A DNA stretch of 64,000 bases from Bordetella parapertussis (GCA_945901405.1 CAMDLH010000001.1:1-64000); one strand, 5' to 3'. Shown: positions 8,651-60,120, counted from the first letter of the stretch. Numbers and translations are program-made. The notes: generated by a model from the letters alone, not told the origin.

Positions 8651-8674
8651 TTTAAAAACAAATAGTTACGTAAT
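8651..8674 (-). repeat. AT-rich intergenic motif copy
   Basis: TTTAAAAACAAATAGTTACGTAAT, between convergent genes. Confidence 0.7.
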
Positions 8675-8687
8675 ATTTGCTGGCTGC

Positions 8688-9629
8688 TTAACGCTGTACC
8701 CGATTCATCATGCCGCCCGGCCGGCCCTCCAGAAAACAGCGCACATTGGTTTCGATGATCGGCCAGGTCATCGCCAGATTGTCATCGCTGCTGCCGGAGC
8801 AATGCGCGGTGATGAGCACGTTGTCCATGTCCCAGAACGGGCTGTCTTTCGGCAGCGGCTCGGTGCGGAACACATCGAGTCCCGCGCCGGCGATGCGTTT
8901 GTTTTTCAGTGCGTCTAGCAAGGCATTTTCGTCGCACAGGCCGCCACGCGCGAGATTGAGCAGATAGGCGCTGGGTTTCATCGCCGACAATATTTTGGCG
9001 TTGATCAGGCTATCCATCTCGCGTGAGTACGGCGTGAGCACCACCAGAAAATCCGCGCGTGCGGCGGCTTGTTCGAGCTGCGCGTAAGCGTAAACCTGGT
9101 CGAACCCTTCGACATCGCGCGGCGTTGCGCTGACACCCAGCACCGTCATGCCAAAGGCCTTGCAGCGCGGAGCAAGCGCTTTGGCGATGAGGCCGAGGCC
9201 GGTGATGACCACGGTTTTGCCGTGCAGCCGCACTTGCGTCCAGCGCTTCCAGATATGCCTTTTTTGATTGTCGTGCATGCGCGGATAGTCGCGCGCGAGA
9301 TTGAGCATGTAGAGAAACGCCATCTCCGCCATCTGCGGGCCGTGGATGCCGCGCGTGGTGGTGAGCACCACATCGGGCCGCAGCGTGCGCGAACCTGCGA
9401 TGGCGTCAAAGCCCGTGGTCATCGCGTGTATCCACTTGAGCCTGGTTGCCTGGGCGAGCCGCTCGTCGTTAAAGCCGTGGCCCGCCGCCATGATGATGTC
9501 GGCCTCGTGAAAGCGCGGCACGGATTCAGGCAGATCGGGCGCGGTGATGACTTCGATGCCGGGAAAGGATTGTTTCAGTTTGGGCGCGAAATATTCCGCG
9601 TCGCGATGGGCGAACAGTATCGTGGTCAT
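8688..9629 (-). CDS. D-2-hydroxyacid dehydrogenase
   Basis: GKTVVITGLGLIAKALAPRCKAFG and NLARGGLCDENALLDALKNKRIAGAGLDVF. Confidence 0.88.
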   Translation of the reverse strand: MTTILFAHRDAEYFAPKLKQSFPGIEVITAPDLPESVPRFHEADIIMAAGHGFNDERLAQATRLKWIHAMTTGFDAIAGSRTLRPDVVLTTTRGIHGPQMAEMAFLYMLNLARDYPRMHDNQKRHIWKRWTQVRLHGKTVVITGLGLIAKALAPRCKAFGMTVLGVSATPRDVEGFDQVYAYAQLEQAAARADFLVVLTPYSREMDSLINAKILSAMKPSAYLLNLARGGLCDENALLDALKNKRIAGAGLDVFRTEPLPKDSPFWDMDNVLITAHCSGSSDDNLAMTWPIIETNVRCFLEGRPGGMMNRVQR

Positions 9630-9634
9630 GATTT

Positions 9635-10612
9635 TCAGGTTCCAGTGTCGCCCTTGAGCCCGGCTTCTTTCACCAGCTTGCCGAATTTGGCGAATTCCGC
9701 TTTCAGATAATCACGGAATTGTTCGGGCGTGCCGCTGGTAATGATGGAACCTACCGCTGCATGTTTCTCGACAATGTCGGGCAGTTTCAGCACCGCGGCG
9801 AATTCGCGATTCAAGCGCTCGATGATGGCGCGTGGCGTGCGCGCTGGCGCGCCGAGCGCGGTCCATGATGAATTTTCGTATCCGGGCACACCGGCCTCGG
9901 CGATGGTCGGCAGCTCAGGCAGCGAGGGCAGTCGAATCGCGCCGGTGGTGGCGAGTGCACGCAGCTTGCCTGATTTGACGTGCGGCAGCGTGGTGATCAC
10001 GGTGTTGAACATGACTTGCGTGTGGCCGCCGATGACTTCGGTCATCGCGGGCGCGGCGCCTTTGTATTGCACGCCGGTCATGCGCACTTTCGTCATCGAG
10101 TTAAATAACTCGGCGGACACATGGCTGTAGCCGCCCATGCCGCCGGATGCGTAGTTGAGCGCGCCGGGTTTTTGTTGCGCCAATGCGATCAGGTCTTTCA
10201 CCGTCTTCGCCGCGACCGAAGGATGCACCACCAGCACACCCGGCGTGGTTGCGATTTGAATAATCGGCGCGAAATCTTTTTGTGTGTCGTACGCAAGCTT
10301 GCTGAAATGCGGCGTCACCGCCCACGCGCCGACCGTGGCGCTGACCAGCGTGTAGCCATCGGCGGGCGCGCGCGCGACGATTTCCATGCCGACAATGCCG
10401 CCGCCTCCGCCACGGTTATCGATCACCACCGGTTGTGCAAAACGTTGCGATAACTTTTCACCGAGCATGCGCGCCTGTATGTCGGGCGTGCCGCCGGGCG
10501 GCACCGGCACCACCAGACGTATCGCCTTGTCGGGATACGCGGCGTGCGAGGGCGCCGCTGCGCATGCGCTCGCAACAGCAATCATCAGCAACGAGCGGCG
10601 AAGGCGGGGCAT
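9635..10612 (-). CDS. Bug/TctC-family substrate-binding protein
   Basis: YPDKAIRLVVPVPPGGTPDIQARMLGEKL...VVIDNRGGGGGIVGMEIVARAPADGYT. Confidence 0.93.
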   Translation of the reverse strand: MPRLRRSLLMIAVASACAAAPSHAAYPDKAIRLVVPVPPGGTPDIQARMLGEKLSQRFAQPVVIDNRGGGGGIVGMEIVARAPADGYTLVSATVGAWAVTPHFSKLAYDTQKDFAPIIQIATTPGVLVVHPSVAAKTVKDLIALAQQKPGALNYASGGMGGYSHVSAELFNSMTKVRMTGVQYKGAAPAMTEVIGGHTQVMFNTVITTLPHVKSGKLRALATTGAIRLPSLPELPTIAEAGVPGYENSSWTALGAPARTPRAIIERLNREFAAVLKLPDIVEKHAAVGSIITSGTPEQFRDYLKAEFAKFGKLVKEAGLKGDTGT

Positions 10613-10621
10613 AAAATAATG

Positions 10622-10647
10622 TTTAAAAACAATAACTTACGTTACAA
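10622..10647 (-). repeat. AT-rich intergenic motif copy
   Basis: TTTAAAAACAATAACTTACGTTACAA, 10 bp upstream of the - strand TctC start at 10612. Confidence 0.72.
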
Positions 10648-10662
10648 CATCGAAGGGGGGCG

Positions 10663-11661
10663 TCAATCCACTTTCGCCTTCAGCGTCCTCGCGATCATCG
10701 CGTATTTCTCCACTTCGCTCTTGATCAATGCCGCGAATGCCTCCACCGTGCCGCCGACGGGCTCCGTGCCGTTGGCGGCATATTTTTCCAGCAGGCTGGG
10801 CGAGACCATGGCTTTGTTCACTGCGTCGTTCAGACGCGCGATGACGGCCTTGGACACCCCCATGGGCGTGATTAACCCGGCCCACACCGTCACGTCATAA
10901 CCGGGCACGCCGGCCTCGGCGATGGGCGGCAGTTCGGGAAAAGCCGCCACGCGTTTTAGCCCGGTGATGGCGATACCGCGCAGGCGGCCCGCGCGGTGAT
11001 GCGGCGAAATCGAACTCGTGCTTTCGAAAATCAGTTGCACCTGCCCGCTCATCATATCGGTCATCGCCTGCGCGCCGCCCTTGTAGGGAACGTGTGCGAT
11101 GCTCACCTTGGCCATCTGCTTGAACAATTCGCCGGCCAGATGGCCCGGCGTGCCGTTGCCTGAAGAGCCATTCAACAGCTTGCCCGGATTGGCCCTGGCA
11201 TGCGCAATCAGCTCGCGCACCGATTTCACCGGCAGCAGATTCGTCACGGCGAGCATCTGGCTGCCGGTGTTGGTCTGCGCAATCGGCTGCACGTCCTTCA
11301 GCACGTCATAGGGCACGCTGGGCAAGATGCTGCGATTAATCGCCAGCCCGCCGATGTTGCCGTAGCCGACGGTGTAGCCGTCGGGCGCGGCGCGCACCAC
11401 CATGTCGATGCCGATGGTGAGTCCGCCGCCGGGCCGGTTATCCACCACCACCTGCTGGCCGAGGATGCGCGTGAGTTCATGCGCGATGATGCGCGCCGAG
11501 GTGTCCGACGCGCTGCCCGCGGCCTGCGGCACGATGTAGCGTATCGGGCGGTCGGGGTACTGCGCGGCGGCATGCGTTGTTGCCGCACAAGCCACGGCAA
11601 AAAACGAACCAATCGCAAACTTCTTTGCGGTGAACCTAGGGTAGGCGTGATGACTGTTCAT
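10663..11661 (-). CDS. Bug/TctC-family substrate-binding protein
   Basis: YPDRPIRYIVPQAAGSASDTSARIIAHEL...HVPYKGGAQAMTDMMSGQVQ. Confidence 0.93.
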   Translation of the reverse strand: MNSHHAYPRFTAKKFAIGSFFAVACAATTHAAAQYPDRPIRYIVPQAAGSASDTSARIIAHELTRILGQQVVVDNRPGGGLTIGIDMVVRAAPDGYTVGYGNIGGLAINRSILPSVPYDVLKDVQPIAQTNTGSQMLAVTNLLPVKSVRELIAHARANPGKLLNGSSGNGTPGHLAGELFKQMAKVSIAHVPYKGGAQAMTDMMSGQVQLIFESTSSISPHHRAGRLRGIAITGLKRVAAFPELPPIAEAGVPGYDVTVWAGLITPMGVSKAVIARLNDAVNKAMVSPSLLEKYAANGTEPVGGTVEAFAALIKSEVEKYAMIARTLKAKVD

Positions 11662-11747
11662 GATGGTTTCTACCAGCGGTGGATCAATCGGTGTTCGGAA
11701 TCAGAGGCTATCAGAAAATACCCTCAACTTCGCACTCGCGTTGTGTG

Positions 11748-13094
11748 TCAGCCCAATCGCAACTCACGCACATCGCCGAGGCTTTCGAGCGATTGAAAGG
11801 CGTCGAAGATACCGCGCGCGTGTTCGCGTGGCAGGCTCGCCGTCAGCAGGCTGAATTTATCCCATAGTTGGGTGGCGTCCAGCGGCTGTTGCGGCATGCC
11901 GGGAAAGTAGAGCTGATCCTGCGTGATTTCGCGGCCGTTTTTCAGTCGAACGACAACGCGGCTTGCGAGCTTGTTGTCCTTGGGTCCGTCCGCATACAAC
12001 GCCAGGCTGACCTTGCGGCACAACGCGCGTATCGCCGGGTCGTTCAGCGATTCGTCGCAGAACACCCTGGGGTCGCGCGGGTTGCGATAGAACGCGAGTG
12101 CGACGCTGAACTGCGTGCTGTATTGCGCCATCGCCAGATCGCGCGGTTCGGTAATCGCGTGGTGGCTCACCAGCTTGTCGTTGCCGAATACACGTATCGA
12201 GTCGATGTCGTCGCCTGTGATGCCGTGTTTGTTTTTGATTTCCAGCGCGGCGGTCACCGCGACATGCGCGGTGCTGTGGCAGGCGTAACACTTGAGCACC
12301 GTGCGCAGCGTCTTCCACACCGTTCCGAGATCAGCGGTCAAACATGCCAGCTCCGGGTCACGGCAAAACGTATTGAGAAAACCGTATTGGCCTTCCAGCA
12401 CTTGCGGCGGCCCGCTGAACCCGTCGCGCGCCAGTTCGGCGGCGAGTATCGCGCCCTCGCTGGCGCGCCCCTGATGCAGACGCTTCACCATGCCGCCGCC
12501 GGATTTCGAGAATTCCAGCAGGCCCGAACACAACGAGCCAGCGATGCCCAGCGCGTCCGCGAGTTGCTTCGTGTCAAGCCCCATCAATCGGCCGGCGACG
12601 ACGGCGCCGCCGAACACACCAAGCAAACCCGGCGCATGAAAGCCGAGTCCCTCGCTGGTGTGGTGCGCCGCCTGGCCAATGCGGTACATCACTTCCGCGC
12701 CCGCGACGAACGCGGTGATCAGCTCACGGCCGCTGCTGCCGCGCGCCTGCGCCGCGGCGAGGCCCGGCGCGGTGAGCGAAGCGCCCGGATGCGCGCCCAC
12801 GCTCGGCTGACACATGCTGTCGAGCTCGAACGCATGCGCGAAAGCGCCGTTCACCATCGCCGCGAACGGCGGCTGCATTCGCAGTCCCGCGCCGATCACC
12901 GTGCACGGCCCGGCCGCGCTGTTTCGACGCGCGTAGTCGAGAATGATTTTGCTCCATGGCAGCGTGGCGCCGAAAACAGCAGCGCCCACGGTGTCGGCCA
13001 TGATGTCTTTTGCGCGCCCGGCAACCTGCGCGGGTATGTCGTCGTAAGACAGATCGAGCGCGAATTGGGCGAGTGTTTGCGAGGCAGTGGTCAT
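11748..13094 (-). CDS. MmgE/PrpD family protein
   Basis: PrpD-like MADTVGAAVFGATLPW...KCYACHSTAHVAVTAALEIK; likely start ATG at 13094. Confidence 0.88.
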   Translation of the reverse strand: MTTASQTLAQFALDLSYDDIPAQVAGRAKDIMADTVGAAVFGATLPWSKIILDYARRNSAAGPCTVIGAGLRMQPPFAAMVNGAFAHAFELDSMCQPSVGAHPGASLTAPGLAAAQARGSSGRELITAFVAGAEVMYRIGQAAHHTSEGLGFHAPGLLGVFGGAVVAGRLMGLDTKQLADALGIAGSLCSGLLEFSKSGGGMVKRLHQGRASEGAILAAELARDGFSGPPQVLEGQYGFLNTFCRDPELACLTADLGTVWKTLRTVLKCYACHSTAHVAVTAALEIKNKHGITGDDIDSIRVFGNDKLVSHHAITEPRDLAMAQYSTQFSVALAFYRNPRDPRVFCDESLNDPAIRALCRKVSLALYADGPKDNKLASRVVVRLKNGREITQDQLYFPGMPQQPLDATQLWDKFSLLTASLPREHARGIFDAFQSLESLGDVRELRLG

Positions 13095-13140
13095 GTTGAA
13101 TGCGGGTGGCGTGTTGATTTTGTTGACGGGGATTTCAAAG

Positions 13141-14151
13141 CTAATCGACTTTGATGCCGGCATCCTTGACCAGTTTGGTCCACAGCGCAAGTTCATGTCT
13201 GACGGTGGCCGCGCATTGTTCGGGCGTGCTGCCTACCGGTTCCGCGCCCGCTGCAAACAAACTTCTTTGCACGTCCGTTTCGGCGACGGCCTTGACGATT
13301 TCCTGATTGAGGCGGGTGACGATGGGCTTGGGCAACCCTTTCGGTCCAAGCAACGCGAACCACGGACTTGAGTCGAAGCCCGGCAGCCCTTGTTCGGAGA
13401 GCGTGGGAATCTCGGTGAATATGCGCGAGCGTTTCAATCCGGATACGCCCAACGCCTTGAGCCGCTGTGATTTCACATGCGGCATCGCGCCGGGCGAACT
13501 GGCGAACACCAACTGGATTTCACCGCTCAAGGCCGCGGCGAACACGATGCCGGAGCCTTTGTAAGGTATATGCACGATGTTCGTGCGCGTGACGTACTTG
13601 AAAAGCTCGCCAGAAAGGTGGCTTTGCGAGCCCACGCCCGCCGAGCCGTAGTTAAGCGAGCCGGGTTTGGCGCGCGCCAGCGCGATCAGTTCCTTGAGCG
13701 AGGATGCCGCGACCGTGGATGCGGCCAGCAGCACGTGCGGCGCGGTCGCTATGGTCGAGATTGGCGTGAAGTCCCGGATGGTGTCGTACGGCAGTTTGGG
13801 ATTGAGCGCCTGATTCGCGCCGTGCGAACTGTTGTTCGTCACCGTCAGCGTATAACCATCGGGCGCGGCTCTTGCGACGATCTCGCTGCCGAGCACGCCG
13901 CCGGCGCCCCCGCGGTTATCGACGACCACTGATTGCCCCATGCTATCGCTCAGTTTGCGCGCCATCAGCCTGCCGGTGAAATCAACGCCGCCGCCCGGTG
14001 CAAAAGGCACAACCAGCCGCAGCGCACGATCGGGATATCCCTGCGCCAAGACCTGATTTGCGGCCGCCGCAAGCAACAGCAAGGCGCCGCCTCGCGCGAA
14101 ACGCAGGCGTAACAACAAGACTTCTTTCCAATCGTGTAAAGATTTTTGCAT
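13141..14151 (-). CDS. Bug/TctC-family substrate-binding protein
   Basis: YPDRALRLVVPFAPGGGVDFTGRLMARKL...IVHIPYKGSGIVFAAALSGE; likely start 14151 within ORF 13141..14607. Confidence 0.92.
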   Translation of the reverse strand: MQKSLHDWKEVLLLRLRFARGGALLLLAAAANQVLAQGYPDRALRLVVPFAPGGGVDFTGRLMARKLSDSMGQSVVVDNRGGAGGVLGSEIVARAAPDGYTLTVTNNSSHGANQALNPKLPYDTIRDFTPISTIATAPHVLLAASTVAASSLKELIALARAKPGSLNYGSAGVGSQSHLSGELFKYVTRTNIVHIPYKGSGIVFAAALSGEIQLVFASSPGAMPHVKSQRLKALGVSGLKRSRIFTEIPTLSEQGLPGFDSSPWFALLGPKGLPKPIVTRLNQEIVKAVAETDVQRSLFAAGAEPVGSTPEQCAATVRHELALWTKLVKDAGIKVD

Positions 14152-14263
14152 GCCGCCGGCGACTTTACTTGAGGCGTCGGCGCACCGCAAATGCGCGAGC
14201 GTCGCGGCGCTACCGCTATAATTGCCGGCAACCCTCCGCGATTTTTTCATCGAAGGAAATCTC

Positions 14264-15631
14264 ATGTCCACCACGCGGCTTGCCCGCTTTGTCACCGCAA
14301 CCCAAGCCGCGGACATGCCGCGCGCGCTGCTCGACGCGGCGCTTGACGCGGTGATGGATACCATGTCGGTCGGCCTCGCCGGCGCGATGGAGCCGGTAAG
14401 CGAACTGGTGGCGCAATGGACAGCCGAAAACTCCGGGCGCGCCGCGGCCACGGTATGGGGGCGCCGCATCAAGGCCTCCGCCGTGGAAGCGGCGTTCGCG
14501 AATGCAATCGCGGCGCACGCGCTGGATTTCGATGACACCTTGCCGACCATGCGCGGCCACCCCAGCGCGGTGCTGGTGCCCACGGCGCTGGCGGTGGCAG
14601 AAGACACCGGGGCGAGCGGCAGGGATGTGTTGGCGGCCTACGTCATCGGTCTTGAGGTCGCGGGCAAACTTGGCCGCGCCGCGAACGAGGCATTGTTCAA
14701 ACAGGGTTGGCACACTACGCCCACATTGGGTGTATTCGCGGCAACGGCGGTTGCCGCGCGTTTGTGGGGACTTGATGCCGAGGCATTGCAGCGCGCGTGG
14801 GGGCTCGCGGCCTCGCAGGTCGGTGGCCTGATGCGCAACTTTGGCACGATGACCAAGCCGTTCCACGCGGGGCACGCGGCGCGCTGCGGCATGTTCTCCG
14901 CGTGGATGGCCAAACGCGGGTTTACCGCCGATGCGGAAATTCTGGACGGCCGCAAGGGCGTGTTTTTCACCTATGGCGGGGTCGAGGCGGCCGCGCTGGA
15001 AAACGCGTTCGAGCGGCTGGGCGATCCATGGGAAATCACCGCGCCGGGCGTCTACGTCAAGGGCTGGCCATGCTGTTACTGCAATCACCGCCCGATCGGC
15101 GGGTTGCTGCAACTCATGGCGCGGCACGCCATCAATGTTGATGAGATCAATTCGGTTGCCGTTGGATTCCTGCCGGGCTCGGACGATGCGCTGCTCAGCG
15201 ACAATCCGCAGACCGGGCTGGAAGGCAAATTCAGCATCGAATATTCCATGGCCGCAACCATGCTCGACCGCGAACTTACGCTGAAAGTCTTTACCGACAA
15301 GATGGTGCGGCGGCCGCGCATACGCGAGCTGATGAAACGCGTGCGGCGTTACCGTATCGAGGACAGCAAGATTTATTCGGGCGTTGTCGGCTACACCGAT
15401 GTGACGGTGGAGACGCAACGCGGCAGCTTCAAGCTGCGCGTCGACAAGACGCCGGGTTCACCGGATTGGCCGTTGAGCGCCGACACGCGTAGCCGCAAGT
15501 TTCTCGATTGCAGCGAACGCGTACTGGGCGCCGCGGGGGCGCGGCGTCTGCTCGAAGTCGCGCGCAATTTGCACGATTTGCCCAGCGTGCGTCCATTGCT
15601 CGATGCCGCCGTGCCGCGGCAGACGCCATGA
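14264..15631 (+). CDS. MmgE/PrpD family protein
   Basis: MDTMSVGLAGAMEPVSELV...ALDFDDTLPTMRGHPSAVLVPTALA. Confidence 0.88.
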   Translation: MSTTRLARFVTATQAADMPRALLDAALDAVMDTMSVGLAGAMEPVSELVAQWTAENSGRAAATVWGRRIKASAVEAAFANAIAAHALDFDDTLPTMRGHPSAVLVPTALAVAEDTGASGRDVLAAYVIGLEVAGKLGRAANEALFKQGWHTTPTLGVFAATAVAARLWGLDAEALQRAWGLAASQVGGLMRNFGTMTKPFHAGHAARCGMFSAWMAKRGFTADAEILDGRKGVFFTYGGVEAAALENAFERLGDPWEITAPGVYVKGWPCCYCNHRPIGGLLQLMARHAINVDEINSVAVGFLPGSDDALLSDNPQTGLEGKFSIEYSMAATMLDRELTLKVFTDKMVRRPRIRELMKRVRRYRIEDSKIYSGVVGYTDVTVETQRGSFKLRVDKTPGSPDWPLSADTRSRKFLDCSERVLGAAGARRLLEVARNLHDLPSVRPLLDAAVPRQTP

Positions 15632-16632
15632 AGTTGCAGCGAATATTGCGCGTTTGCTGCGTGCTGGCGATGCTGGCCGCCGGTTACGCGGACGACACGC
15701 ATGCGCAAGGCGAACGCACACGGCCAGGTGCCCAGGACTATCCGCAAAAACCCATACGCTGGTTGATCGGTTTCGCGCCGGGCGGCGGGCAGACCGTGCT
15801 GGTTCGGCTGGCCGGCCAAAAACTGACCGAACGCTGGGGCGTTTCGATCATTGTCGATAACCGGCCGGGCGCGGGCGGAACCATCGCGATGGATCTGGCC
15901 GCCAACGCGCCGCCGGATGGATACACCGTGCTGAATTTATCGAGCAGCATGGCGATCAACGCCGGGTTGATTACCAAGGTGTCGTTCAATATACACGAAG
16001 CATACGCGCCAGTGACGCGCCTGACTTCCCAGCCGTATCTGCTGGTGGCGCATCCCTCGCTGCCCGCGAAAAACATCAAGGAACTGATCGCGCTGGCGCG
16101 TGCCAGCCCCGGCAAGCTCAATTATGGTTCGTCGGGCACCGGATCATTGGGACATCTTGCCATGGAGTTGTTCAATCACATGGCGAAGATACAAATCACC
16201 CATGTGCCGTATAAGGGCACCGGCCAGACGCTGATCGACCTGCTCGGCGGACAGATCGGCATTGCGACCTCGAGCATTATCGCGGCCGTGCCGCATATCA
16301 AGACCGGCAGACTGCGCGCGCTGGCGGTGACGACGAGCCGGCGATCATCGATACTTCCCGAGGTTCCCGCGATCGCCGAAAGTGGATTGGCGGGTTACGG
16401 CGTCGATGGCTGGTACGGTCTTGTCGTGCCGCGCAACGTGCCGCAGGAGATCGTGGCGAAACTGAATCGCGAGATCGGCGGCATCATGGCGCTGCCCGAT
16501 GTGAGAGCGGCGCTGCTTGCGGACGGCGCGGAACCGGCGAGCGGAACGCCCGCCGAGTTTCAGGCGACAATCGCCGATGAAATAAAAAAATGGACCAATC
16601 TGGTGCGCACGTCCGGTGTGCGCCTGAATTGA
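15628..16632 (+). CDS. Bug/TctC-family substrate-binding protein
   Basis: YPQKPIRWLIGFAPGGGQTVLVRLAGQKL...ITHVPYKGTGQTLIDLLGGQ; ATGA overlap with upstream PrpD. Confidence 0.92.
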   Translation: MKLQRILRVCCVLAMLAAGYADDTHAQGERTRPGAQDYPQKPIRWLIGFAPGGGQTVLVRLAGQKLTERWGVSIIVDNRPGAGGTIAMDLAANAPPDGYTVLNLSSSMAINAGLITKVSFNIHEAYAPVTRLTSQPYLLVAHPSLPAKNIKELIALARASPGKLNYGSSGTGSLGHLAMELFNHMAKIQITHVPYKGTGQTLIDLLGGQIGIATSSIIAAVPHIKTGRLRALAVTTSRRSSILPEVPAIAESGLAGYGVDGWYGLVVPRNVPQEIVAKLNREIGGIMALPDVRAALLADGAEPASGTPAEFQATIADEIKKWTNLVRTSGVRLN

Positions 16633-16681
16633 AGGGGGCGCGCGCCGCGAGCGGCCAAACAGTAACAAGGGAGATTCAAGC

Positions 16682-24780: not shown

Positions 24781-26298
24781 ATGCCTGACATCATTCTCAC
24801 CACCATCAACGCGCGCTACGTGCATGCCGCTCTTGGGCTGCGCTATCTCGCGGCGAACATGGGCGCGCTCGCGCCGCGCACGCGCATCATCGAGTTTGTG
24901 CTCGGCCAGCGCGCGTTCGAGATCGTCGAAGACCTGCTGGCGCTTAACCCGCGCATCGTCGGCATCGGCGTTTACATCTGGAATGTGGATGAGAGCACGC
25001 GCGTGGTGGCGTTGCTCAAGAAAATCGCGCCTCACGTCACGGTGATTCTCGGCGGGCCGGAGGTGAGCTTCGAGACTGGCGGGCAACGCATCTGCGCACT
25101 GGCGGATCATGTGATCACCGGTTGGGGTGATGTGACATTTGCGAAAGTGGCGCATGAAATACTGAACGATAACGCACCCTCGCAAAAGATGATCGCTGGC
25201 GTGCAGCCGCCGCTGGCGCAGCTCGCAATGCCCTATGCGCAATACACCGACGTGGATATCGCGAAACGTTTTATCTATGTCGAGGCCTCGCGCGGCTGTC
25301 CGTTCAAGTGCGAGTTTTGTCTGTCGGCACTTGATAAAACCGCGTGGCCCTTCGAACTGGATGTGTTCATGGCCGAGCTCGGGCAACTCTACAATCGCGG
25401 CGCGCGTAATTTTCGTTTCGTCGATCGCACCTTCAATCTCAAGGTGGCGGTGAGCGAGCGCATCCTGGAGTTTTTTCTGGCGCGCATGGACGACAATCTG
25501 TTCATGCACTTCGAACTGATACCTGATCATCTGCCGGACAAGCTGAAGGATGCCATCGCAAAGTTTCCGCCGGGCGCGCTGCATTTCGAGATCGGCATTC
25601 AGACCTTCAACCCGGATGTGCAGGAGCGTATTTCGCGGCGGCAGGACGACGCGCAGGCCGAGGCGAATATTCGCTGGCTGCGCGAGCAATCGAATGCGCT
25701 GATCCACGTCGATCTCATCGCCGGGCTGCCGGGCGAAGACCTCGCGAGTTTCGGCCGCGGGTTCGACCGGCTGCATGCGTTAAAGCCGCATGAGATTCAG
25801 GTCGGTATCCTCAAACGTTTGCGCGGCGCGCCGATAGAGCGCCACACGGATGCGCATCAACTGCGTTTCAATCCCGATGCGCCCTACAACGTGCTGGCGA
25901 CCGATTGCATCAACTTCAACGACATGCAGCGCATCAATCGCTTCGCGCGTTATTGGGATCTTGCGGGCAACTCCGGGCGCTTTCGCTATGCGCTGCCGCT
26001 GCTGCTCGCCGATGCGCCGTTCGAGCGCTTCATGCGCTTTGCCGATTGGCTGTATGCGCGCACGCACAAGACGCATGAGTTCGCGTTTGAGCGCTTGTGC
26101 GAATTCGTGCATGCGCATCTGATCGAGATCGCGGGTGTTGATGCTGCCGCCGCAAGTGCAGCCGTGGAGGCGGATTACGAAGCCAGCGGCGCGCGCGGTA
26201 AACTCGCGTTCATGCAGAGTGGCGTGCGCCCGCGTGATGCCCGCAACGCCACCGCGCGGCAGCACATGCGCCAGGCGCGGCACGTCACGGCGGTATAA
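24781..26298 (+). CDS. B12-binding domain-containing radical SAM protein (DUF4080-type)
   Basis: MPDIILTTINARYVHAALGLRYLAANM; radical SAM motif EASRGCPFKCEFCLS. Confidence 0.9.
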   Translation: MPDIILTTINARYVHAALGLRYLAANMGALAPRTRIIEFVLGQRAFEIVEDLLALNPRIVGIGVYIWNVDESTRVVALLKKIAPHVTVILGGPEVSFETGGQRICALADHVITGWGDVTFAKVAHEILNDNAPSQKMIAGVQPPLAQLAMPYAQYTDVDIAKRFIYVEASRGCPFKCEFCLSALDKTAWPFELDVFMAELGQLYNRGARNFRFVDRTFNLKVAVSERILEFFLARMDDNLFMHFELIPDHLPDKLKDAIAKFPPGALHFEIGIQTFNPDVQERISRRQDDAQAEANIRWLREQSNALIHVDLIAGLPGEDLASFGRGFDRLHALKPHEIQVGILKRLRGAPIERHTDAHQLRFNPDAPYNVLATDCINFNDMQRINRFARYWDLAGNSGRFRYALPLLLADAPFERFMRFADWLYARTHKTHEFAFERLCEFVHAHLIEIAGVDAAAASAAVEADYEASGARGKLAFMQSGVRPRDARNATARQHMRQARHVTAV

Positions 26299-26300
26299 GG

Positions 26301-26332
26301 TAACTAATTGTTTTTATTGAATATTTTGTGAG
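26301..26332 (+). repeat. AT-rich intergenic motif copy
   Basis: TAACTAATTGTTTTTATTGAATATTTTGTGAG, between stop 26298 and ATG 26338. Confidence 0.7.
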
Positions 26333-27613: not shown

Positions 27614-27660
27614 CTTCGATGGTTGGGCTGAATGATTCGTGCGTGAAACTTAAAATAGAC

Positions 27661-27685
27661 AATAAAAACAAATACTTACGTTATG
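27661..27685 (-). repeat. AT-rich intergenic motif copy
   Basis: AATAAAAACAAATACTTACGTTATG, ending at the ATG of the Rieske gene (27683). Confidence 0.72.
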
Positions 27686-35210: not shown

Positions 35211-35230
35211 GAACGCGAAACAAAAAAGTG

Positions 35231-35265
35231 TTTATAAACAAAAACTTACGAATTAACTAACTATG
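35231..35265 (-). repeat. AT-rich intergenic motif copy
   Basis: TTTATAAACAAAAACTTACGAATTAACTAACTATG, abutting the ATG of the second Rieske gene (35263). Confidence 0.68.
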
Positions 35266-41329: not shown

Positions 41330-41367
41330 GCGAAGCGGAAGTTCGGAAATCGAGGAATTTTAAAAAT

Positions 41368-41396
41368 ATCAATAAAAACAATTATTTACGTAAACG
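41368..41396 (-). repeat. AT-rich intergenic motif copy (upstream of - strand gene)
   Basis: ATCAATAAAAACAATTATTTACGTAAACG. Confidence 0.7.
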
Positions 41397-51377: not shown

Positions 51378-51563
51378 TGCCTCGGCGCCACGACTTCGTA
51401 TCGCGTGGTGAGCGACAACGGTGCGTGGAAGGTCGATAACGGGTTGTAAGTCCCTGCGACAATCGCGTCGTGGAATGCAGGCATCGAGGGTTCGGGTGAC
51501 CCCGTTAACTACGCTCCCGTCGCGGCGAGCAGGAGGGTGTGGCGCGTGGGCATGGTGCGGATG

Positions 51564-52049: not shown

Positions 52050-52063
52050 TTCGTGACGGGATC

Positions 52064-52084
52064 GTAAGTATTTGTTTTTAAACG
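52064..52084 (+). repeat. AT-rich intergenic motif copy
   Basis: GTAAGTATTTGTTTTTAAACG; reverse complement CGTTTAAAAACAAATACTTAC, just upstream of the - strand redoxin start. Confidence 0.7.
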
Positions 52085-52097
52085 ACAATGTATTGCA

Positions 52098-52787: not shown

Positions 52788-52807
52788 CGTGTTATGCCTC
52801 TTAATGA

Positions 52808-53185
52808 CTATGACCGCCGATGCTGCAATGGAAGGATACGTAGCCGCGCGCGATTTGTATCAATCGTCAAGAGTGCGCCGTTTTCCAATTCATCCTCCAT
52901 TTGCCGAAGCGCGCTGATGACGGCGGCGCCGGTTATTTCCGGGCTCAGATTGTCCGCGCGGATTTGCACGACGCTTGGTTTCTCGCCGTGAGTTGCGGCG
53001 AGGATGGCGCCGAAATAGAGATCATTGGTCAGCACCACGTAGCCGTGTGCACGTGCATAAGCCATGATCTCTGAATCTGGCGCGTTGTGCGCGCCCAGTG
53101 TGGCCCAATGCGCGGCCTCCAAGCTCGCATCGGTAAGCACACGAATCCATCGCGGCGACAGATTCATGTCGACGAGCAACTTCAT
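52808..53185 (-). CDS. DUF5615 PIN-like protein (putative toxin)
   Basis: MKLLVDMNLSPRWIRVLTDASLEAAHWATLGAHNAPDSEIMAYARAHGYVVLTNDLYFG. Confidence 0.85.
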   Translation of the reverse strand: MKLLVDMNLSPRWIRVLTDASLEAAHWATLGAHNAPDSEIMAYARAHGYVVLTNDLYFGAILAATHGEKPSVVQIRADNLSPEITGAAVISALRQMEDELENGALLTIDTNRARLRILPLQHRRS

Positions 53186-53412
53186 GCGCTGGCCAGCGTA
53201 ACCTCGCGTTCTTCGGCGCGCCATGCTGCATAGCGCAGCGCCTGCATGATGTCTTCGCGCTCCAGGTATGGGTAATCGGCGAGAATTTCATCAACCCCGC
53301 GGCCCGTACCGACTTGTCCCACGATCATGCCGACCGTGATGCGCATGCCGCGAATGCATGCCTTGCCGCCCATTGTGACCGGATCTTGCGTGATGCGACT
53401 GAATTGCTCCAT
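53182..53412 (-). CDS. DUF433 domain protein (putative antitoxin)
   Basis: SRITQDPVTMGGKACIRGMRITVGMIVGQVGTGRGVDEILADYPYLEREDIMQALRYAA; 4-bp overlap with DUF5615 gene. Confidence 0.87.
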   Translation of the reverse strand: MEQFSRITQDPVTMGGKACIRGMRITVGMIVGQVGTGRGVDEILADYPYLEREDIMQALRYAAWRAEEREVTLASA

Positions 53413-53461
53413 GCCTGCCTCCGCTATCTTGCGTTCCCGATATGGTAGCGTAGAACGTGGC

Positions 53462-54589
53462 TCATGCCGCATGCGTCTTCGCAAAACCCCAGTCGATCTC
53501 AATGCCGAAGCCAGGCAGGTCATTCATATAAACGTAGCTGTCACGCACCTGCGCGCGCTCGCTGAACAGCCCGTGCCAGATCGGGTCGCGGTCGGGCGAG
53601 CCGTGTGATTCGACCGCGAAGCCGGTGCGTGGGAATGCGGCGACGAGGTGGCAGTGCATCTCCGGCGCGTGATGCGGGGTGATCATCGCGCCGGCGTGGT
53701 CGGCCATGTGTGCCACGCGCAGGGCTTCGGTGAAGCCTGCCGCGCGGGTGGCGTCGAACATGATGTAGCGCACGCAGCCGGTGGTCATGAAGTCGCGCGT
53801 GGTGAAGCGCGTGAGTTCGCGTTCACCGTGGGCGAGTGGTATCGACGTTGTCTTGGCGAGCAGCGCGAAATCGGCCGGCTGCAAATACCAGTGCAGCGGT
53901 TCTTCGAGCCAGAAAATATTGTAGGGCGCGACCGCGCGCGCGAACTCGATGCACGCGGGCAGGTCGTATGCGGCATTCAGATCGAGCATCAGAGAAATAT
54001 CCGGCCCGATGGCGGCACGCGTGGCGGCGATGCGTTTGACTTCGTTGGCGACGGTGCCGGCGCCGGTTTTCAACTTCACAGCCTTGTAGCCGCGCGCTAC
54101 AAATCCTGCAAGCTCATCGGCGCAGGCGGTGAGCGCGGCACCTTCGACGTAATAGCCGCCGGTACCGTAGGTGAACACCGGTTTGTTGTCCGCGCCGAGC
54201 AGCCTGTACACCGGCATGTTCGCGGCCTTGCCCTTGATATCCCACAGCGCCATGTCGATGCCGCCAATGGCCGCCATGATCTGCGGCCGCGCGGTGCGCG
54301 GCAGGCCTCCGATGCCGGGTTGTGGCGAGGTGAGGGCGAAGAGTTTCTCCCACACGTCGACGTGCGCGAGCGCGCTCATGCCGAGCGCGTGCGGCGCCAG
54401 CTTCGCCACCCATGCCGCGATGTCCTTCATCGGCGTGCTGCTCACTTGCCCGTAGCCCTTGATGCCATCATCTGTGACGACTTCGATCAGCAGCAGGGTC
54501 ACATCGGCGCGCGATTCGTGCGCGGTGTGCTGCCGGTGTTTGAGCGGCGCGGATATTGGGTAGGTGTTGATCGCGGCGATGTTGCTCAA
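53462..54589 (-). CDS. Mandelate racemase/muconate lactonizing enzyme family protein
   Basis: YKAVKLKTGAGTVANEVKRIAATRAAIGPDISLMLDLNAAYDLPACIEFARAVAPYNIFWLEEPLH. Confidence 0.92.
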   Translation of the reverse strand: MSNIAAINTYPISAPLKHRQHTAHESRADVTLLLIEVVTDDGIKGYGQVSSTPMKDIAAWVAKLAPHALGMSALAHVDVWEKLFALTSPQPGIGGLPRTARPQIMAAIGGIDMALWDIKGKAANMPVYRLLGADNKPVFTYGTGGYYVEGAALTACADELAGFVARGYKAVKLKTGAGTVANEVKRIAATRAAIGPDISLMLDLNAAYDLPACIEFARAVAPYNIFWLEEPLHWYLQPADFALLAKTTSIPLAHGERELTRFTTRDFMTTGCVRYIMFDATRAAGFTEALRVAHMADHAGAMITPHHAPEMHCHLVAAFPRTGFAVESHGSPDRDPIWHGLFSERAQVRDSYVYMNDLPGFGIEIDWGFAKTHAA

Positions 54590-54607
54590 GTCAAACTCCC
54601 GGCGTTA

Positions 54608-55576
54608 CTAGGGTTTTTTCGCCCCAATGAATTCCATGAATTCGCCCACTGCAGGCATCTGCTTGGTTAGATATTGCGTTAGCGCCGCGCTGCCCATGTA
54701 GGTGTTCTCGTACATGTTCTTCGATGCGTAGTCGCGCCATCCGGCGCTCTTGTGCGCGCGTTCGGCCATCGCCTCCATCACGGCGAGCGTTTCCTTGGGC
54801 ACGCCCGCGGGCATGGCCAAGCCGCGTCCGCCGCCGACGTGCACGTTGATGCCGAGTTCCCGTAACGTCGGCACGTCGGGCAAGCCCGTCAGGCGCTGCT
54901 CGGCGGGCACGGCGAGTATGCGCAGGCGCTTGGCCTCGACGCCGCTCATCACCTCGCTCACGTTTTCCATGGTGAGATCGACGTGTTTGCCCATCACCGC
55001 GGCCATGGCATCGCTGCCGCTCTTGAACGACACGTATTTGAATTTCGCGCCGGTGGCTTTTTCGAGTTGATACTGAAAGAAGCGCGCGGTGCCGGTGGCC
55101 GAGGCGATGCCGTTGATGATGGTGTCCGGCGATTGTTTCGCGGCGTCGAGCAACTCCTTGAAGGTTTTGAATTTGGAGTCGGCGGGCACGGTGATCGATT
55201 GCAAATCAAAGCCGAACAACGCGACCGGCGAGTAGATGCCAAGGTCAAGCCCGGCGTCCGGGCGATTCGCCAGCGCCAGCACGATGGTGCTCGACAGCGA
55301 CAACAGATAATGCGGATCGGCGCGCCTGCCCTTGATGAAGGTCGAAGCCACAGCGCCGCTGCCGCCAGGGCGGTTGACGATGGTGAAGGGCTGCGACAAC
55401 AATTTTTCGCGCGCGGCGATTTCGGCGACCAGGCGCCCGAATACATCCTGCCCGCCGCCGGGATTGGTGTGGATCACCATTTCGACCGGCTTGGAGGGAA
55501 ACGATTGCGCGCAGACGGCAAACGGCGACATTGCCAGGGCGACGCCAGCGCCGCGCAGAAGTTGTGAAAGTGTCAT
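54608..55576 (-). CDS. Divergent Bug/TctC-family substrate-binding protein
   Basis: FPSKPVEMVIHTNPGGGQDVFGRLVAEIAAREKLLSQPFTIVNRPGGSGAVAST. Confidence 0.83.
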   Translation of the reverse strand: MTLSQLLRGAGVALAMSPFAVCAQSFPSKPVEMVIHTNPGGGQDVFGRLVAEIAAREKLLSQPFTIVNRPGGSGAVASTFIKGRRADPHYLLSLSSTIVLALANRPDAGLDLGIYSPVALFGFDLQSITVPADSKFKTFKELLDAAKQSPDTIINGIASATGTARFFQYQLEKATGAKFKYVSFKSGSDAMAAVMGKHVDLTMENVSEVMSGVEAKRLRILAVPAEQRLTGLPDVPTLRELGINVHVGGGRGLAMPAGVPKETLAVMEAMAERAHKSAGWRDYASKNMYENTYMGSAALTQYLTKQMPAVGEFMEFIGAKKP

Positions 55577-55667
55577 CGGTTGTTCTCCTCGGATTGTTTA
55601 TTGGGGTGTTGCAACAGCCGCGAAGCGTAACATAACGCGGGCCTTGCTGGCCACGGGCGGTGTTAAT

Positions 55668-55704
55668 GTAAGTAATTTTTTTTATTGAATAAATTGTGAT
55701 AATG
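55668..55704 (+). repeat. AT-rich intergenic motif copy
   Basis: GTAAGTAATTTTTTTTATTGAATAAATTGTGATAATG, upstream of ATG 55733. Confidence 0.7.
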
Positions 55705-55732
55705 CCATGCGGTGTATGATGGCGGCAAAATC

Positions 55733-56602
55733 ATGAAAACACTCAATATCATCGGCGCAGGGCGCGTCGGCCGCACGCTGGCCTCGCTGTGGGAAGAAAA
55801 GCGCACATTCGTCATCGGTGATGTGCTCGACCGCACGCCGGCGGGCGCGCGCGAGGCGGTTGCGTTCATCGGCGACGGACGCGCGGTCAACAACATCAGC
55901 GAAATGCAGGCGGCGGACGTGTGGATGTTGACGCCGCAAGACGCGGCCATCGTGAGCTGCGGCGACGCGCTGGCGGCGAGCGGCTTGCTGCGCGCGGGCG
56001 ACATTGTGTTTCATTGCAGCGGCGCCATGCCTTCGACCGAGTTGAAAACGGCGCTCGCCTGCGGCGCGCATGTGGCCGGTGTGCATCCACTGAAAAGTTT
56101 CGCCGATCCGCGCGACGCAGTGCGCAACTTTACCGGCACCTATTGCGCGGCCGAAGGCGCACGCGACGCGCTTGAGGTTTTGAAACCCGCGTTCGAGCGC
56201 ATCGGCGCGCGCGTGTCGGAGATCGACGCGCAATTCAAGACGATTTATCACACGGCCAGCGTGATCGTGTGCAACTACTTGACCGCGCTGATGGAAGCGG
56301 GGTTGAAGTGCTACGAAAAATCCGGCCTGCCGCGCGAGACCGCCAGCGCGATGATGGAGCCGCTGGTGCGCGAGACGGTGGATAACGTATTTCGCATGGG
56401 CACGGTGAAGGCGCTGACCGGGCCCATCGCACGCGGCGATCATGCGGTGGTGGCGAAGCAGATGCAGGCGCTCGCCGAGTGGGATCCGCGGCTTGCGGTG
56501 CTGTATCGCGAACTGGGGGCGATTGCGGTGGATTTGTCGCGTGCGCAGGGCGAGGCGGGTGGGGAGGCTTTGGCGGAGTTGTCTAAGATATTAAAGGCGT
56601 GA
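55733..56602 (+). CDS. Rossmann-like/DUF2520 domain protein
   Basis: MKTLNIIGAGRVGRTLASLWEEK...GVHPLKSFADPRDAVRNFTGTYCAAEG...DAQFKTIYHTASVIVCNYLTALMEAG. Confidence 0.88.
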   Translation: MKTLNIIGAGRVGRTLASLWEEKRTFVIGDVLDRTPAGAREAVAFIGDGRAVNNISEMQAADVWMLTPQDAAIVSCGDALAASGLLRAGDIVFHCSGAMPSTELKTALACGAHVAGVHPLKSFADPRDAVRNFTGTYCAAEGARDALEVLKPAFERIGARVSEIDAQFKTIYHTASVIVCNYLTALMEAGLKCYEKSGLPRETASAMMEPLVRETVDNVFRMGTVKALTGPIARGDHAVVAKQMQALAEWDPRLAVLYRELGAIAVDLSRAQGEAGGEALAELSKILKA

Positions 56603-56714
56603 AGGGTGTAAATTCGTGAAGGGTGAAGGGGTACCTCAGTGGGCCGTGACGCAATTTATGGCTATCCCCGCGAAAGGGGGCCCCCTTCACGCATTCACCC
56701 TTCGCCCTTCACGC
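56597..56714. repeat. Intergenic inverted repeat
   Basis: GCGTGAAGGG...GTGAAGGGTGAAGGGG opposite CCCCCTTCACGCATTCACCCTTCGCCCTTCACGC. Confidence 0.6.
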
Positions 56715-56770
56715 TTTTAAGAACCACCGCAGTACAATACCCCGCTCCTCTCTAAAGACCAAAGAACACA

Positions 56771-57700
56771 GTGAGCATCGACCAACAAATCCGCCACCGC
56801 ATCCTGCGCGGCATCACCCTGAACCGCACGCCGGGCTTTCACTTCACCGGCAATTTTTTGAGTCCTTCGTACGATCATGTTTCCGTCGAGGCGGTGCATG
56901 CCTCGCTCAACGTGGGGCCGCATTGCACGGATGCGAATGGCAGCATCAATTACGGCGCGCTGGCGGTGTTTGCCGACCTTGCGGTGGCTTCCAACGTGCG
57001 TGCGGGGCACGACCGCGCGGCGCGGCTCGCGACCGTAAACATGAACATGCATTTCACCGGCGCGCCGATGACCGGGCGCATCGAGGCGAAGACGGCGCTG
57101 CAAGGTTATGTCGTCAACGCCACCAGCCGCCAGGGCGCGGGCATCGTTACCATCAGCGCCAACGGGCAGCCGGTGTGTTTCGGCACGGGGGCGTTCATGG
57201 TGCTCAATCCGCCCAAGGGTGTGGCGTTGTACAACATGGAGTTGCGCCGTGAGAGCGACCCGGAAGTACCGCTGCTAACCGAAGCCGAATTGACGCGCGA
57301 GGAGCGCCAGATCATGCGGCGCGCGGATGAGGCGATTGCCGTATCGAGTGACGGCGGATTCCTCCGCCGCTTCTGGGGCTATGACACGCATGCGCTCACC
57401 AAGGGCGCGGCGGGCACGCTGAAAAACGGACCGCACGTGGGCAACCGCGTCGGCCATTTGCAGGGCGGCATCACGATGGGGCTGGGCATGGCCACCGCCG
57501 AGGCCGCGCTGCCGCCGACCTCGATGATCAGCGCGGTGTCGGCGTGGTTCATCAGTCCCGGCGAGGGGCGCGCGATCAAGGCGAAATCGAAAATCGTGCA
57601 TCACGGGCGGCTTACCAGCGTGATTCGCACGCAGATCACCGGCAAGAACAACCGGCGCGTGATGGAAATGGTCACCACGCACGCGCATAAAGCAGCTTAG
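56771..57700 (+). CDS. PaaI-like hotdog-fold thioesterase family protein
   Basis: GSINYGALAVFADLAVASNVRAGHDRAARLATVNMNMHFTGAPMTGRIEAKTALQGY, repeated second domain HLQGGITMGLGMATAEAAL. Confidence 0.75.
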   Translation: MSIDQQIRHRILRGITLNRTPGFHFTGNFLSPSYDHVSVEAVHASLNVGPHCTDANGSINYGALAVFADLAVASNVRAGHDRAARLATVNMNMHFTGAPMTGRIEAKTALQGYVVNATSRQGAGIVTISANGQPVCFGTGAFMVLNPPKGVALYNMELRRESDPEVPLLTEAELTREERQIMRRADEAIAVSSDGGFLRRFWGYDTHALTKGAAGTLKNGPHVGNRVGHLQGGITMGLGMATAEAALPPTSMISAVSAWFISPGEGRAIKAKSKIVHHGRLTSVIRTQITGKNNRRVMEMVTTHAHKAA

Positions 57701-57705
57701 GTCCC

Positions 57706-58824
57706 GTGGTGCTGCGAACGCTCTCCGGCAAGCATACCGACCCGCGCAAGGGAAGGGGTGCGGCGATCAACCCTGAGGGGCGCTTCGAGAAAGTCGAACG
57801 CGAGGCGTACGACGACGGCTGGATGCATGATGAAGAGGACGATGAGGGCGACGGGCGCGCGCTGAAGACGCAGATCATCGAGGAAACCGCGGCGTCGATC
57901 ATCACACGCAACAACTCGCCGGACATTCCGTTCACGCAATCGATCAATCCGTATCAGGGCTGCGAGCACGGCTGCTCGTATTGCTACGCGCGGCCCACGC
58001 ATGCCTATCGCAACCTGTCGCCGGGCGTGGATTTCGAGACGCGTATTTTTGCCAAGATCAACGCGGCGGAATTGCTGCGCAAGGAATTGGCCAAGCCCGG
58101 TTACAAGTGCGAAGTGATTTCGCTCGGGGCGAACACCGACCCGTATCAACCGGCCGAGAAGAAACTCGGCATCACGCGCGCGGTGCTGGAGGTGTGCGCG
58201 GAATTCAACCAGCCGGTGGGCATCGTCACCAAGAACGCAATGGTCGAACGGGACATCGATATCCTTGCGTCCATGGCGCAACGCAAGCTGGTCAACGTGC
58301 ATCTGTCGGTGAACAATCTCGATCACGACATCGCGCGCAGGCTGGAGCCGCGCTGCTCCGCGCCCGCGCGGCGCTTGCAGGCGATACGCACGTTGAGTGA
58401 GGCCGGCGTGCCGGTGGGCGTGCTGGTGGCGCCGGTGATTCCGTTTTTGAACGACGACCAGATCGAAGCCGTGCTCGAAGCAGCATTCGAGGCAGGGGCG
58501 ACGCAAGCTGGATACGTCGTGCTGCGCCTGCCATACGAAGTGAAAACGCTATTCCGCGACTGGCTCGAACGCCACTATCCGTTGAAGGCCAAACACGTGA
58601 TGAGCCGTGTGCACGAGTTTCGCGGCGGACGTGATAATGATCCGAACTTCGGCAGCCGCATGCGGGGGCAGGGCGAATTCGCCGACTTGCTGGCGAAACG
58701 TTTCGCCATCGCCAAGCGGCGCATAGGGTACGAAGAACGGTCGCGTATGATGCGCAATGCCTCGTTGGATACAACATTGTTTCGCGTGCCTGGGTGCGAG
58801 GCGCGGCAGGGATCGTTGTTTTGA
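57706..58824 (+). CDS. PA0069-family radical SAM protein
   Basis: NPYQGCEHGCSYCYARPTHAYRNLSPGVDFETRIFAKINAAELLRKEL. Confidence 0.92.
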   Translation: MVLRTLSGKHTDPRKGRGAAINPEGRFEKVEREAYDDGWMHDEEDDEGDGRALKTQIIEETAASIITRNNSPDIPFTQSINPYQGCEHGCSYCYARPTHAYRNLSPGVDFETRIFAKINAAELLRKELAKPGYKCEVISLGANTDPYQPAEKKLGITRAVLEVCAEFNQPVGIVTKNAMVERDIDILASMAQRKLVNVHLSVNNLDHDIARRLEPRCSAPARRLQAIRTLSEAGVPVGVLVAPVIPFLNDDQIEAVLEAAFEAGATQAGYVVLRLPYEVKTLFRDWLERHYPLKAKHVMSRVHEFRGGRDNDPNFGSRMRGQGEFADLLAKRFAIAKRRIGYEERSRMMRNASLDTTLFRVPGCEARQGSLF

Positions 58825-58865
58825 GGCTGAAGAATTTTTGGCGATTGCTTGGTAAAGGAGATGTG

Positions 58866-59882
58866 ATGACGAACGGTAAAGGGCCGCGTGGTGCAGGCCC
58901 GGTAGTGGATACACATGCACACTGGTTTCCCGAGGAATGGGTGCAACTCATCGAGAAAGACGGCGCGCGCTGTGGGGCAAGCATCATACGCCAGGGCGAG
59001 AACCTCACGTTCAAGGGCGGCGGCCTCACGTCGGCGTTTTCAACCGCGTTTGTCGATCTTGATCTGCGGCTCGCCGCGATGGATAAGCAGGGTGTTGATG
59101 TGCATGCGCTGTCGCTCACCACGCCGATGGTGTATTTCGCCCCGGGTGATTACGCGCTGGCGCTGTCGCAGGTGTACAACGATGCCGCGTCCGCCGCGCA
59201 TCGCAAGCACGCCAAGCGTTTTGTCGGCATGGCGATGCTGCCGATGCACGCACCCGAGCTTGCGCTGAAAGAACTTGAACGCGCGGCGAAGCTGCCCGGC
59301 ATGCGCGGGCTATACATGGGCACGCACGTGATCGACAAGGAGCTCGACGATCCATCGTTCTTTGACGTGTACGCCAAATGCGAGGAACTTGGCTGGCCGA
59401 TTTATCTGCATCCGATGGACCCGATCGGCATGCCGCGCATGAAGAAGTATTACCTGATCAACCTGTGCGGCAATCCGTACGATACCGGCATCGCCGCGGC
59501 GCATCTTATTTTCGGCGGGGTGATGGATCGCTTTCCGAAGCTGCACGTGATGCTACCGCACGCCGGCGGCACGTTCCCTGGGCTGGTGGGGCGCTGGGAT
59601 CACGGCACGAAAGTGCGCGCGGAATTGAAACACATGAAGCAGCCGCCCAGCGCGTATCTGCGGCGCTTCAGCTACGACACCATCGGCCACAGCGATGAAA
59701 TCATGGCGAACTTGATTCGCATGGTTGGCGCCGACCGCGTGGTACTGGGCAGTGATTACTGTTTCGACATGGGTCATGAACAGCCGGTGGAAATCGTCGA
59801 GCGCTGGCCCGCGGTGCCGGCAAGCGACCGTGATTTGATCCTGGGCGGCAATGCGGCGCGTATGTTGAAGTTGGTGGGGTGA
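58866..59882 (+). CDS. Amidohydrolase family protein (ACMSD-like)
   Basis: PVVDTHAHWFPEEWVQLIEKDGAR...LHVMLPHAGGTFPGLVGRWDHG...DRVVLGSDYCFDMG. Confidence 0.9.
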   Translation: MTNGKGPRGAGPVVDTHAHWFPEEWVQLIEKDGARCGASIIRQGENLTFKGGGLTSAFSTAFVDLDLRLAAMDKQGVDVHALSLTTPMVYFAPGDYALALSQVYNDAASAAHRKHAKRFVGMAMLPMHAPELALKELERAAKLPGMRGLYMGTHVIDKELDDPSFFDVYAKCEELGWPIYLHPMDPIGMPRMKKYYLINLCGNPYDTGIAAAHLIFGGVMDRFPKLHVMLPHAGGTFPGLVGRWDHGTKVRAELKHMKQPPSAYLRRFSYDTIGHSDEIMANLIRMVGADRVVLGSDYCFDMGHEQPVEIVERWPAVPASDRDLILGGNAARMLKLVG

Positions 59883-59900
59883 GTTAACGTCAACACCTCC

Positions 59901-59986
59901 AACGCAAAGGCGCAAAGACGCAAAGGAAACGCAAAGAACATCTAGTCCTGCTTTTCTTTGCGTGTTGTTCTTTGCGCCTTTGCATT
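59901..59986. repeat. GCAAAG-rich imperfect inverted repeat
   Basis: AACGCAAAGGCGCAAAG (59901-59917) versus CTTTGCGCCTTTGCATT (59970-59986), 16/17 complementary; additional CGCAAAG iterations between. Confidence 0.75.
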
Positions 59987-60088
59987 GAGGTCTTTAGCGG
60001 TCGTGCGCTTGCTTCATGTCATCGCACTCGCGCATGGCGCGTTATTGACTGTGCCGCTGCCCGGTGGCGACCATAAAACGCATCCAAT

Positions 60089-60120
60089 GTAAGTAATTGT
60101 TTTTAAAAGATAATTTAAGG
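60089..60120 (+). repeat. AT-rich intergenic motif copy
   Basis: GTAAGTAATTGTTTTTAAAAGATAATTTAAGG, immediately upstream of ATG 60122. Confidence 0.72.

Follow-up and report, generated by a model that had tools for sequence, protein, structure and literature searches.

The stretch of DNA considered here (GCA_945901405.1 CAMDLH010000001.1:1-64000, labelled Bordetella parapertussis; hereafter the window, that is, the whole 64,000 nucleotides that were analysed) carries a short AT-rich motif in several copies, and it raises the question of what reads this motif and why it is repeated. An earlier note on the window listed nine cores of 22-25 bp and left four options for their nature, namely a nucleoid-protein site, promoter architecture, a small non-autonomous repeat and an uptake-type signal. 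On the basis of sequence comparison, the best reading is that the motif is a lineage-specific extended binding site of the integration host factor (IHF, IhfA/IhfB) and that its copies mark out a grid of high-affinity IHF bends across the genome, with a role that would be architectural. The identity of the site is well supported, the role is proposed from the arrangement of the copies, and the two taken jointly are considered highly probable. The first of the four options has therefore held in an IHF-type form; promoter architecture and the small repeat have not, and the uptake-type signal fits badly.

The listed cores exist, and they belong to an abundant family. Eight of the nine match AAAACAAWTACTTACRTTA with at most three mismatches, where 0 are expected from 100 dinucleotide shuffles; the core at 35231 is a weaker match to AAAACAAWTACTTACRTTA, yet it reaches 47.4 bits by the full matrix. 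The full-length matrix also recovers a tenth copy, missing from the earlier list, at 3242-3275. Alignment of the copies gives a conserved unit of about 34 bp instead of 22-25 bp, extending 14 bp leftward of the listed core, with the consensus TAAAAWAnnn[C/G](AA|TT)TAAAAACAAWTACTTACRTWA. Its layout consists of an A-tract (AAAAWA), an 8-bp stretch that includes an AA or TT step, AAACAA or AATCAA, 4 bp and TTA. The source genome (G000; 6.43 Mb, 327 contigs, completeness 97%, contamination 6.8%) is the sole genome of its genus (g1) in the comparison, its contigs are short and its genes were called by a simple codon-usage caller. The matrix was trained on 724 kb of this genome, and a further 800 kb on other contigs were held out for testing. 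With up to two mismatches, the 16-bp core is present in 324 copies against 4 for the reversed pattern, 16 copies being exact and more than 80 having one mismatch. In the held-out DNA the 34-bp matrix gives 117 matches against 1 for its reversed form, which corresponds to about 940 copies per genome. Both counts confirm the excess over background that the earlier note had proposed as a check.

IHF reads an A-tract, a core and a TTR element while it wraps about 35 bp of DNA and bends it by about 160 degrees. Its site has been described by the consensus WATCARNNNNTTR over 35 bp, in which a left A-tract raises the affinity, and the protein intercalates two prolines 9 bp apart (PMC8421141, PMC9519438). 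The 34-bp unit agrees with this site in composition and in spacing. In held-out DNA, 27 exact pattern matches are found at an A-tract gap of 8 bp and an inner spacer of 4 bp, and 0 at other inner spacers; the A-tract gap varies slightly, with 27 matches at 8 bp, 12 at 7, 11 at 9, 6 at 10 and 0-1 at 4-6 and 11-12. CA is present in 111 of 114 copies, CAA in most of them, and TTA or TTG in 110. The strongest dependence between positions falls on step −4/−3 (AA 56, TT 50, AT 4, TA 0), and it persists in held-out DNA when this step is masked from selection (AA 55, TT 52, AT 6, TA 0; P ~1e-25). ApA and TpT are the same base step seen from opposite strands. Positions 5/6, located 9 bp to the right of this step, are AA in 110/114 copies.

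The same correspondence is obtained on the attP region of phage lambda (NC_001416 27300-28200, 1736 positions), which was scanned with a matrix derived from the source genome only and restricted to the A-tract, WAWCAA and TTR. The sites that we take to be H2, H′ and H1 rank 1, 2 and 6, respectively, of the 1736 positions, and the 13-bp core alone places H1 first. H′ aligns in register with the 34-bp unit, including the distance to the A-tract, and on superposition both AA/TT steps coincide with the kinks, presumably at bp 28-29 and 37-38. Thus, the copies share with lambda attP and with the IHF sites of Escherichia coli the A-tract, the 8-bp gap, WAWCAA-N4-TTR, the length of about 35 bp and the kink steps 9 bp apart; as in E. 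coli, the site is asymmetric and used in either orientation. The ten sites of the window, with their matrix scores, are the following.

3242..3275, plus strand: IHF-type site (TAAAAAATATAATATAATCAACAAGTTACAATAG) with canonical AATCAA core, 39.9 bits, absent from the earlier list.
8641..8674, plus strand: IHF-type site, TT kink variant, with convergent genes on either side, 50.0 bits.
10612..10645, plus strand: IHF-type site, TT kink variant, with co-directional minus-strand genes on either side, 54.1 bits.
26295..26328, minus strand: IHF-type site, AA kink variant, overlapping the stop codon of the upstream gene, 51.8 bits.
27651..27684, plus strand: IHF-type site, AA kink variant, its end touching a possible ATG at 27683, 53.1 bits.
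35221..35254, plus strand: IHF-type site, TT kink variant, the weakest of the earlier cores, 47.4 bits.
41361..41394, plus strand: IHF-type site, AA kink variant, 54.3 bits.
52059..52092, minus strand: IHF-type site, TT kink variant, 41.0 bits.
55663..55696, minus strand: IHF-type site, AA kink variant, in a divergent gap, 47.2 bits.
60084..60117, minus strand: IHF-type site, TT kink variant, 50.2 bits.

Additional ACTTACRT-like half units (e.g., ACTTACATAACTTACATCACTCACGTCA) trail some sites, as at loci L020, L026 and L029 and at 35221-35262 of the window, as if the right half were repeated.

A single IhfA and a single IhfB, both above the equivalog cut-offs and related to the chains of PDB 1IHF, are encoded in the source genome, and their motifs RGFGSF, SGFGNF and PGRNPK are intact, including the DNA arms. 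PF00216 was searched in 18 genomes. No PF00216 protein besides IhfA and IhfB, and hence no HU, was detected in the tested genomes of genera g1, g2, g136, g4 and g137, and the same holds for those g3 genomes that gave PF00216 matches, apart from species G358 with its extra IhfB-like copy. Over the whole search, most genera of the family yielded IhfA and IhfB but no HU. This paralogue (L221) occurs in a genome with few sites. No matrix match of 18 bits or more lies near ihfA or ihfB. Position 56 of IhfA (E. coli numbering) is Asp in g2, g136, g137, g139 and g140, Asn in g1 and g4, and Ile, Leu or Val in g3; it is close to the DNA arm and may tune specificity.

The arrangement of the copies along the chromosome is more even than chance would give. 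Across 1.42 Mb of the source genome, in 31 contiguous segments with 176 neighbour distances, the mean distance is 6450 bp with a coefficient of variation (CV) of 0.606. The corresponding null values are 0.90 for uniform placement, 1.05 for non-coding bases, 0.84 for random gaps and 0.832 +/- 0.047 for class- and length-weighted gaps, and 0/1000 shuffles reached the observed CV. No distance is below 1 kb (0/176, against 12.6 pairs expected), the smallest being 1042 bp. Counts per 20 kb have a mean of 2.89 and a variance of 1.16 (Fano factor 0.40), and the result is stable for thresholds from 18 to 42 bits. In a second genus, genome G046 (g2) gives 52 distances with a CV of 0.54-0.57, none below 1 kb and 1 of about 50 below 2 kb. 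Deletion between nearby direct repeats was considered as a cause of the exclusion zone and rejected, as same-orientation pairs are not short of their share (21/36 under 3 kb). Given the even spacing and the exclusion zone, the relevant effect would act across kilobases rather than on a single gene.

As regards genes, the sites avoid coding DNA and prefer one class of gap. About 100/114 sites and, in held-out DNA, 109/117 are non-coding, though 85% of the DNA is coding; predicted coding sequence holds 8/117 matches. Co-directional gaps receive 82/98 and 76/105 sites. Divergent gaps are under-used (7 vs 17-23 expected; 16 vs 23-32 in held-out DNA) and convergent gaps are near expectation (9 vs 12-15; 13 vs 15-16 in held-out DNA); an early impression of depletion between convergent genes did not hold up as data were added. 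Of the co-directional gaps of at least 30 bp, about one in four bears a site, as compared to 0/44 divergent gaps shorter than 120 bp. The intergenic location given in the earlier note is therefore correct and so is the occurrence of both orientations, which are near random relative to the downstream gene (49:33 and 41:35), but the sites are not mainly upstream of starts: they lie in co-directional gaps and often touch the stop codon of the upstream gene, at a median distance of 6-7 bp. The TAA stop of that gene is often supplied or overlapped by the motif, e.g., at 26295 of the window. The placement resembles that of extragenic structural elements more than that of promoter elements.

Among 300 genomes of the order, the exact form of the motif is rich only in some genera of one family: it is rich in g1, with 10-330 copies in g3 and 7-40 in g2. 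An exact-pattern scan of named genomes matches many metagenome-assembled genomes (MAGs) of Betaproteobacteria/Burkholderiales, and loci from several of them hold 2-4 strong sites per 8 kb. A generic IHF pattern (AAAAWA-N8-WAWCAA-N4-TTR, taken from the E. coli consensus with position 3 relaxed to T or A) is spread more widely. It occurs 661 times in the source genome vs 22 for the control, 193-280 vs 5-10 in well-assembled g2 genomes (e.g., G046, G316), 200-840 vs about 10-30 in most g3 genomes and 74-120 vs 1-11 in g136; weak or mild enrichment, with the same extended look, is seen in many families elsewhere in the order. Few sites are present in g4, g137, g139, g140 and in G358. Because the generic pattern is enriched even where the exact form is rare, the positions that define an IHF site are kept while the remainder drifts by genus. 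Three MAG records with the label Bordetella parapertussis (CAMBGJ01, CAMATZ01 and CAMDDY01) have the motif in common with this uncultured Burkholderiales family, and their label looks wrong.

Individual sites are also retained between species, as the earlier note had asked of relatives. In orthologous gaps of g1 and g3 a site is present in both in 46 cases, in one in 26 and in neither in 675, giving an odds ratio of about 200, a count that leaves out the coding nagZ gap and whose pairs are not independent. The orientation is identical in 74/74 shared orthologous sites (nagZ included). In the gap of the CoxM-/CoxL-type genes the site is kept in eight species of two genera, with AA and TT variants swapping. 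As read from these comparisons, selection acts on the presence and on the orientation of the sites. Two other conserved-looking elements were set aside. A site near nagZ across g3 is a coding coincidence at the start of the gene (MVNKNKDLHLGPVM) and was dropped from the final test; there the 5′ end of nagZ (M..NKNN.HLGPVML; L160:4282 and orthologues) mimics the motif via codon choice. A conserved CGATAAAATACAAATGTTTACG element near lepA scores no more than 20-30 bits and was given no weight.

Four other explanations have to be weighed against an IHF grid. A small mobile or amplified repeat, similar to miniature inverted-repeat transposable elements or repetitive extragenic palindromic (REP) sequences and spread through copying, would account for the high copy number, the intergenic position, the frequent supply of the upstream TAA stop and an information content above need. 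It is hardly credible given that 207 copies include 0 identical pairs, with a mean identity of 21.7/34 and flank identity of at most 0.44, that the 34-bp consensus has no palindrome spanning it and no inverted repeats, and that position and orientation are common to different genera while AA and TT variants swap at the same site; the small non-autonomous repeat of the earlier note is contradicted by this retention with drift. The closest known case is that of the RIB/RIP elements (BIME-1) of E. coli, in which a REP-based palindrome, repeated about 70 times, contains an IHF site. They are likewise extragenic, lie in co-directional gaps and near gene ends; the motif described here differs by having no palindrome, no signature of copying and about ten times more sites. 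A signal preferred by a DNA-uptake or recombination system and accumulated by molecular drive, as for uptake signal sequences (USS) or DNA uptake sequences (DUS), is a very improbable source of the motif. The copies are indeed short, numerous, in both orientations, mostly in permissive positions and lineage-restricted, with AT tracts separated by one helical turn, like those of USS, and a fairly even distribution has likewise been reported for USS (PMC7811141, PMC1939737). However, USS cluster and often lie within genes, 23% of those of Haemophilus influenzae being within 100 bp of another (PMC7811141), whereas copies here exclude each other (0/176 within 1 kb), contain no known uptake core, fit IHF down to the kink steps and show no excess of near-perfect over degenerate copies (16 exact copies and over 80 with a single mismatch).

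Ordinary local regulation, in which each IHF site would help to activate or repress the promoter next to it and the copies together would make up a large IHF regulon, seems unlikely. The sites are intergenic, orthologous ones are kept and IHF controls many promoters in E. coli, but their orientation to the gene is random and they are scarcer than expected in divergent gaps, which necessarily contain promoters (7 vs 17-23; 16 vs 23-32). Moreover, at least one conserved site falls between the genes of a CoxM-CoxL-type pair, which leave scarcely any space for a promoter, and a per-gene role predicts neither the even spacing nor the 1-kb exclusion. Promoter architecture, as put forward earlier, and a promoter element in general were rejected because the orientation is random and divergent gaps hold too few copies. 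It is decidedly unlikely that a different nucleoid protein, of IHF-like fold or other, reads a site that merely resembles that of IHF. In favour of such a protein are the replacement of T by A in the core and the strong extra conservation outside the IHF consensus. Against it, IhfA and IhfB are the only two PF00216 proteins in the source genome, AATCAA forms coexist with AAACAA at 10-50% (the third position being A 28 and T 19 in relatives, about 1:1 in g2 and 32:33 in G046), and the weakly enriched IHF-consensus matches elsewhere in the order share the extended look.

Several observations weigh against the IHF grid itself. At the third position of WATCAA, where E. coli IHF prefers T (PMC13036160), 101 of the 114 copies of the source genome carry A and 13 carry T, with relatives divided between the two bases. 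The T is a preference of the consensus and no strict requirement, yet the departure from it is genuine. The matrix holds about 44 bits where about 14 suffice for locating 940 sites, and something beyond plain IHF recognition may be under selection. In held-out DNA, the shortage of sites in divergent gaps is less marked if gaps are counted (P 0.12) than if bases are (P 0.0006). The short g3 loci, when pooled, show exclusion at short range, but with a CV no lower than that of the random-gap null. Finally, g4 and g137 likewise hold two PF00216 proteins yet have few sites; the number of sites does not track the absence of HU, and HU loss as the sole cause of their amplification was rejected.

In the grid that we favour, IHF would occupy and bend the predicted sites, and sharp bends placed at regular distances would pin plectoneme tips or the boundaries of nucleoid domains. 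Modelling has proposed for IHF such a role, in which bends set or pin plectonemes or topological domains (PMC9519438). A second site nearby would be redundant or harmful, and divergent gaps bearing promoters may be avoided because a bend there would disturb regulation. As most of these genomes yielded no HU, a larger part of chromosome folding may fall to IHF. A stronger form of this proposal is that the grid is a near-regular folding device, encoded in the sequence, of about one strong IHF bend per 6.5 kb, selected for chromosome-scale spacing, and that after the loss of HU it is IHF that determines how large the supercoiled loops are and where they lie; its chances are somewhat short of even.

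The preferred reading departs from known systems in several respects. About 300 IHF consensus sites have been counted in E. coli (PMC8421141) vs about 940 strong copies here. The latter favour AAACAA over AATCAA, have additional conserved WWTAA and ACTTACRTWA, are evenly spaced with a 1-kb exclusion zone and occupy co-directional gaps instead of promoters. The matS site is also a short sequence repeated along the chromosome for a structural protein; it marks one macrodomain, whereas the sites described here cover all sampled contigs evenly and match IHF. In model bacteria, folding proteins act on weak and scattered sites, so that any tie from sequence to loop layout is difficult to examine. 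The sites described here are strong and countable, evenly distributed and specific to a lineage, which makes it directly testable whether bending proteins set supercoil domains, and closely related genera with and without the grid (few sites in g4, g137, g139, g140 and the g3 species G358) provide a natural comparison. An extended IHF matrix for Burkholderiales is supplied.

One further site concerns the origin of replication. The dnaA-dnaN gap of the source genome (L257) contains the canonical IHF consensus TATCAACATATTG at a distance of 6 bp from a DnaA box, and in several g3 species a weaker matrix match adjoins a DnaA box in the same gap, as in E. coli oriC.
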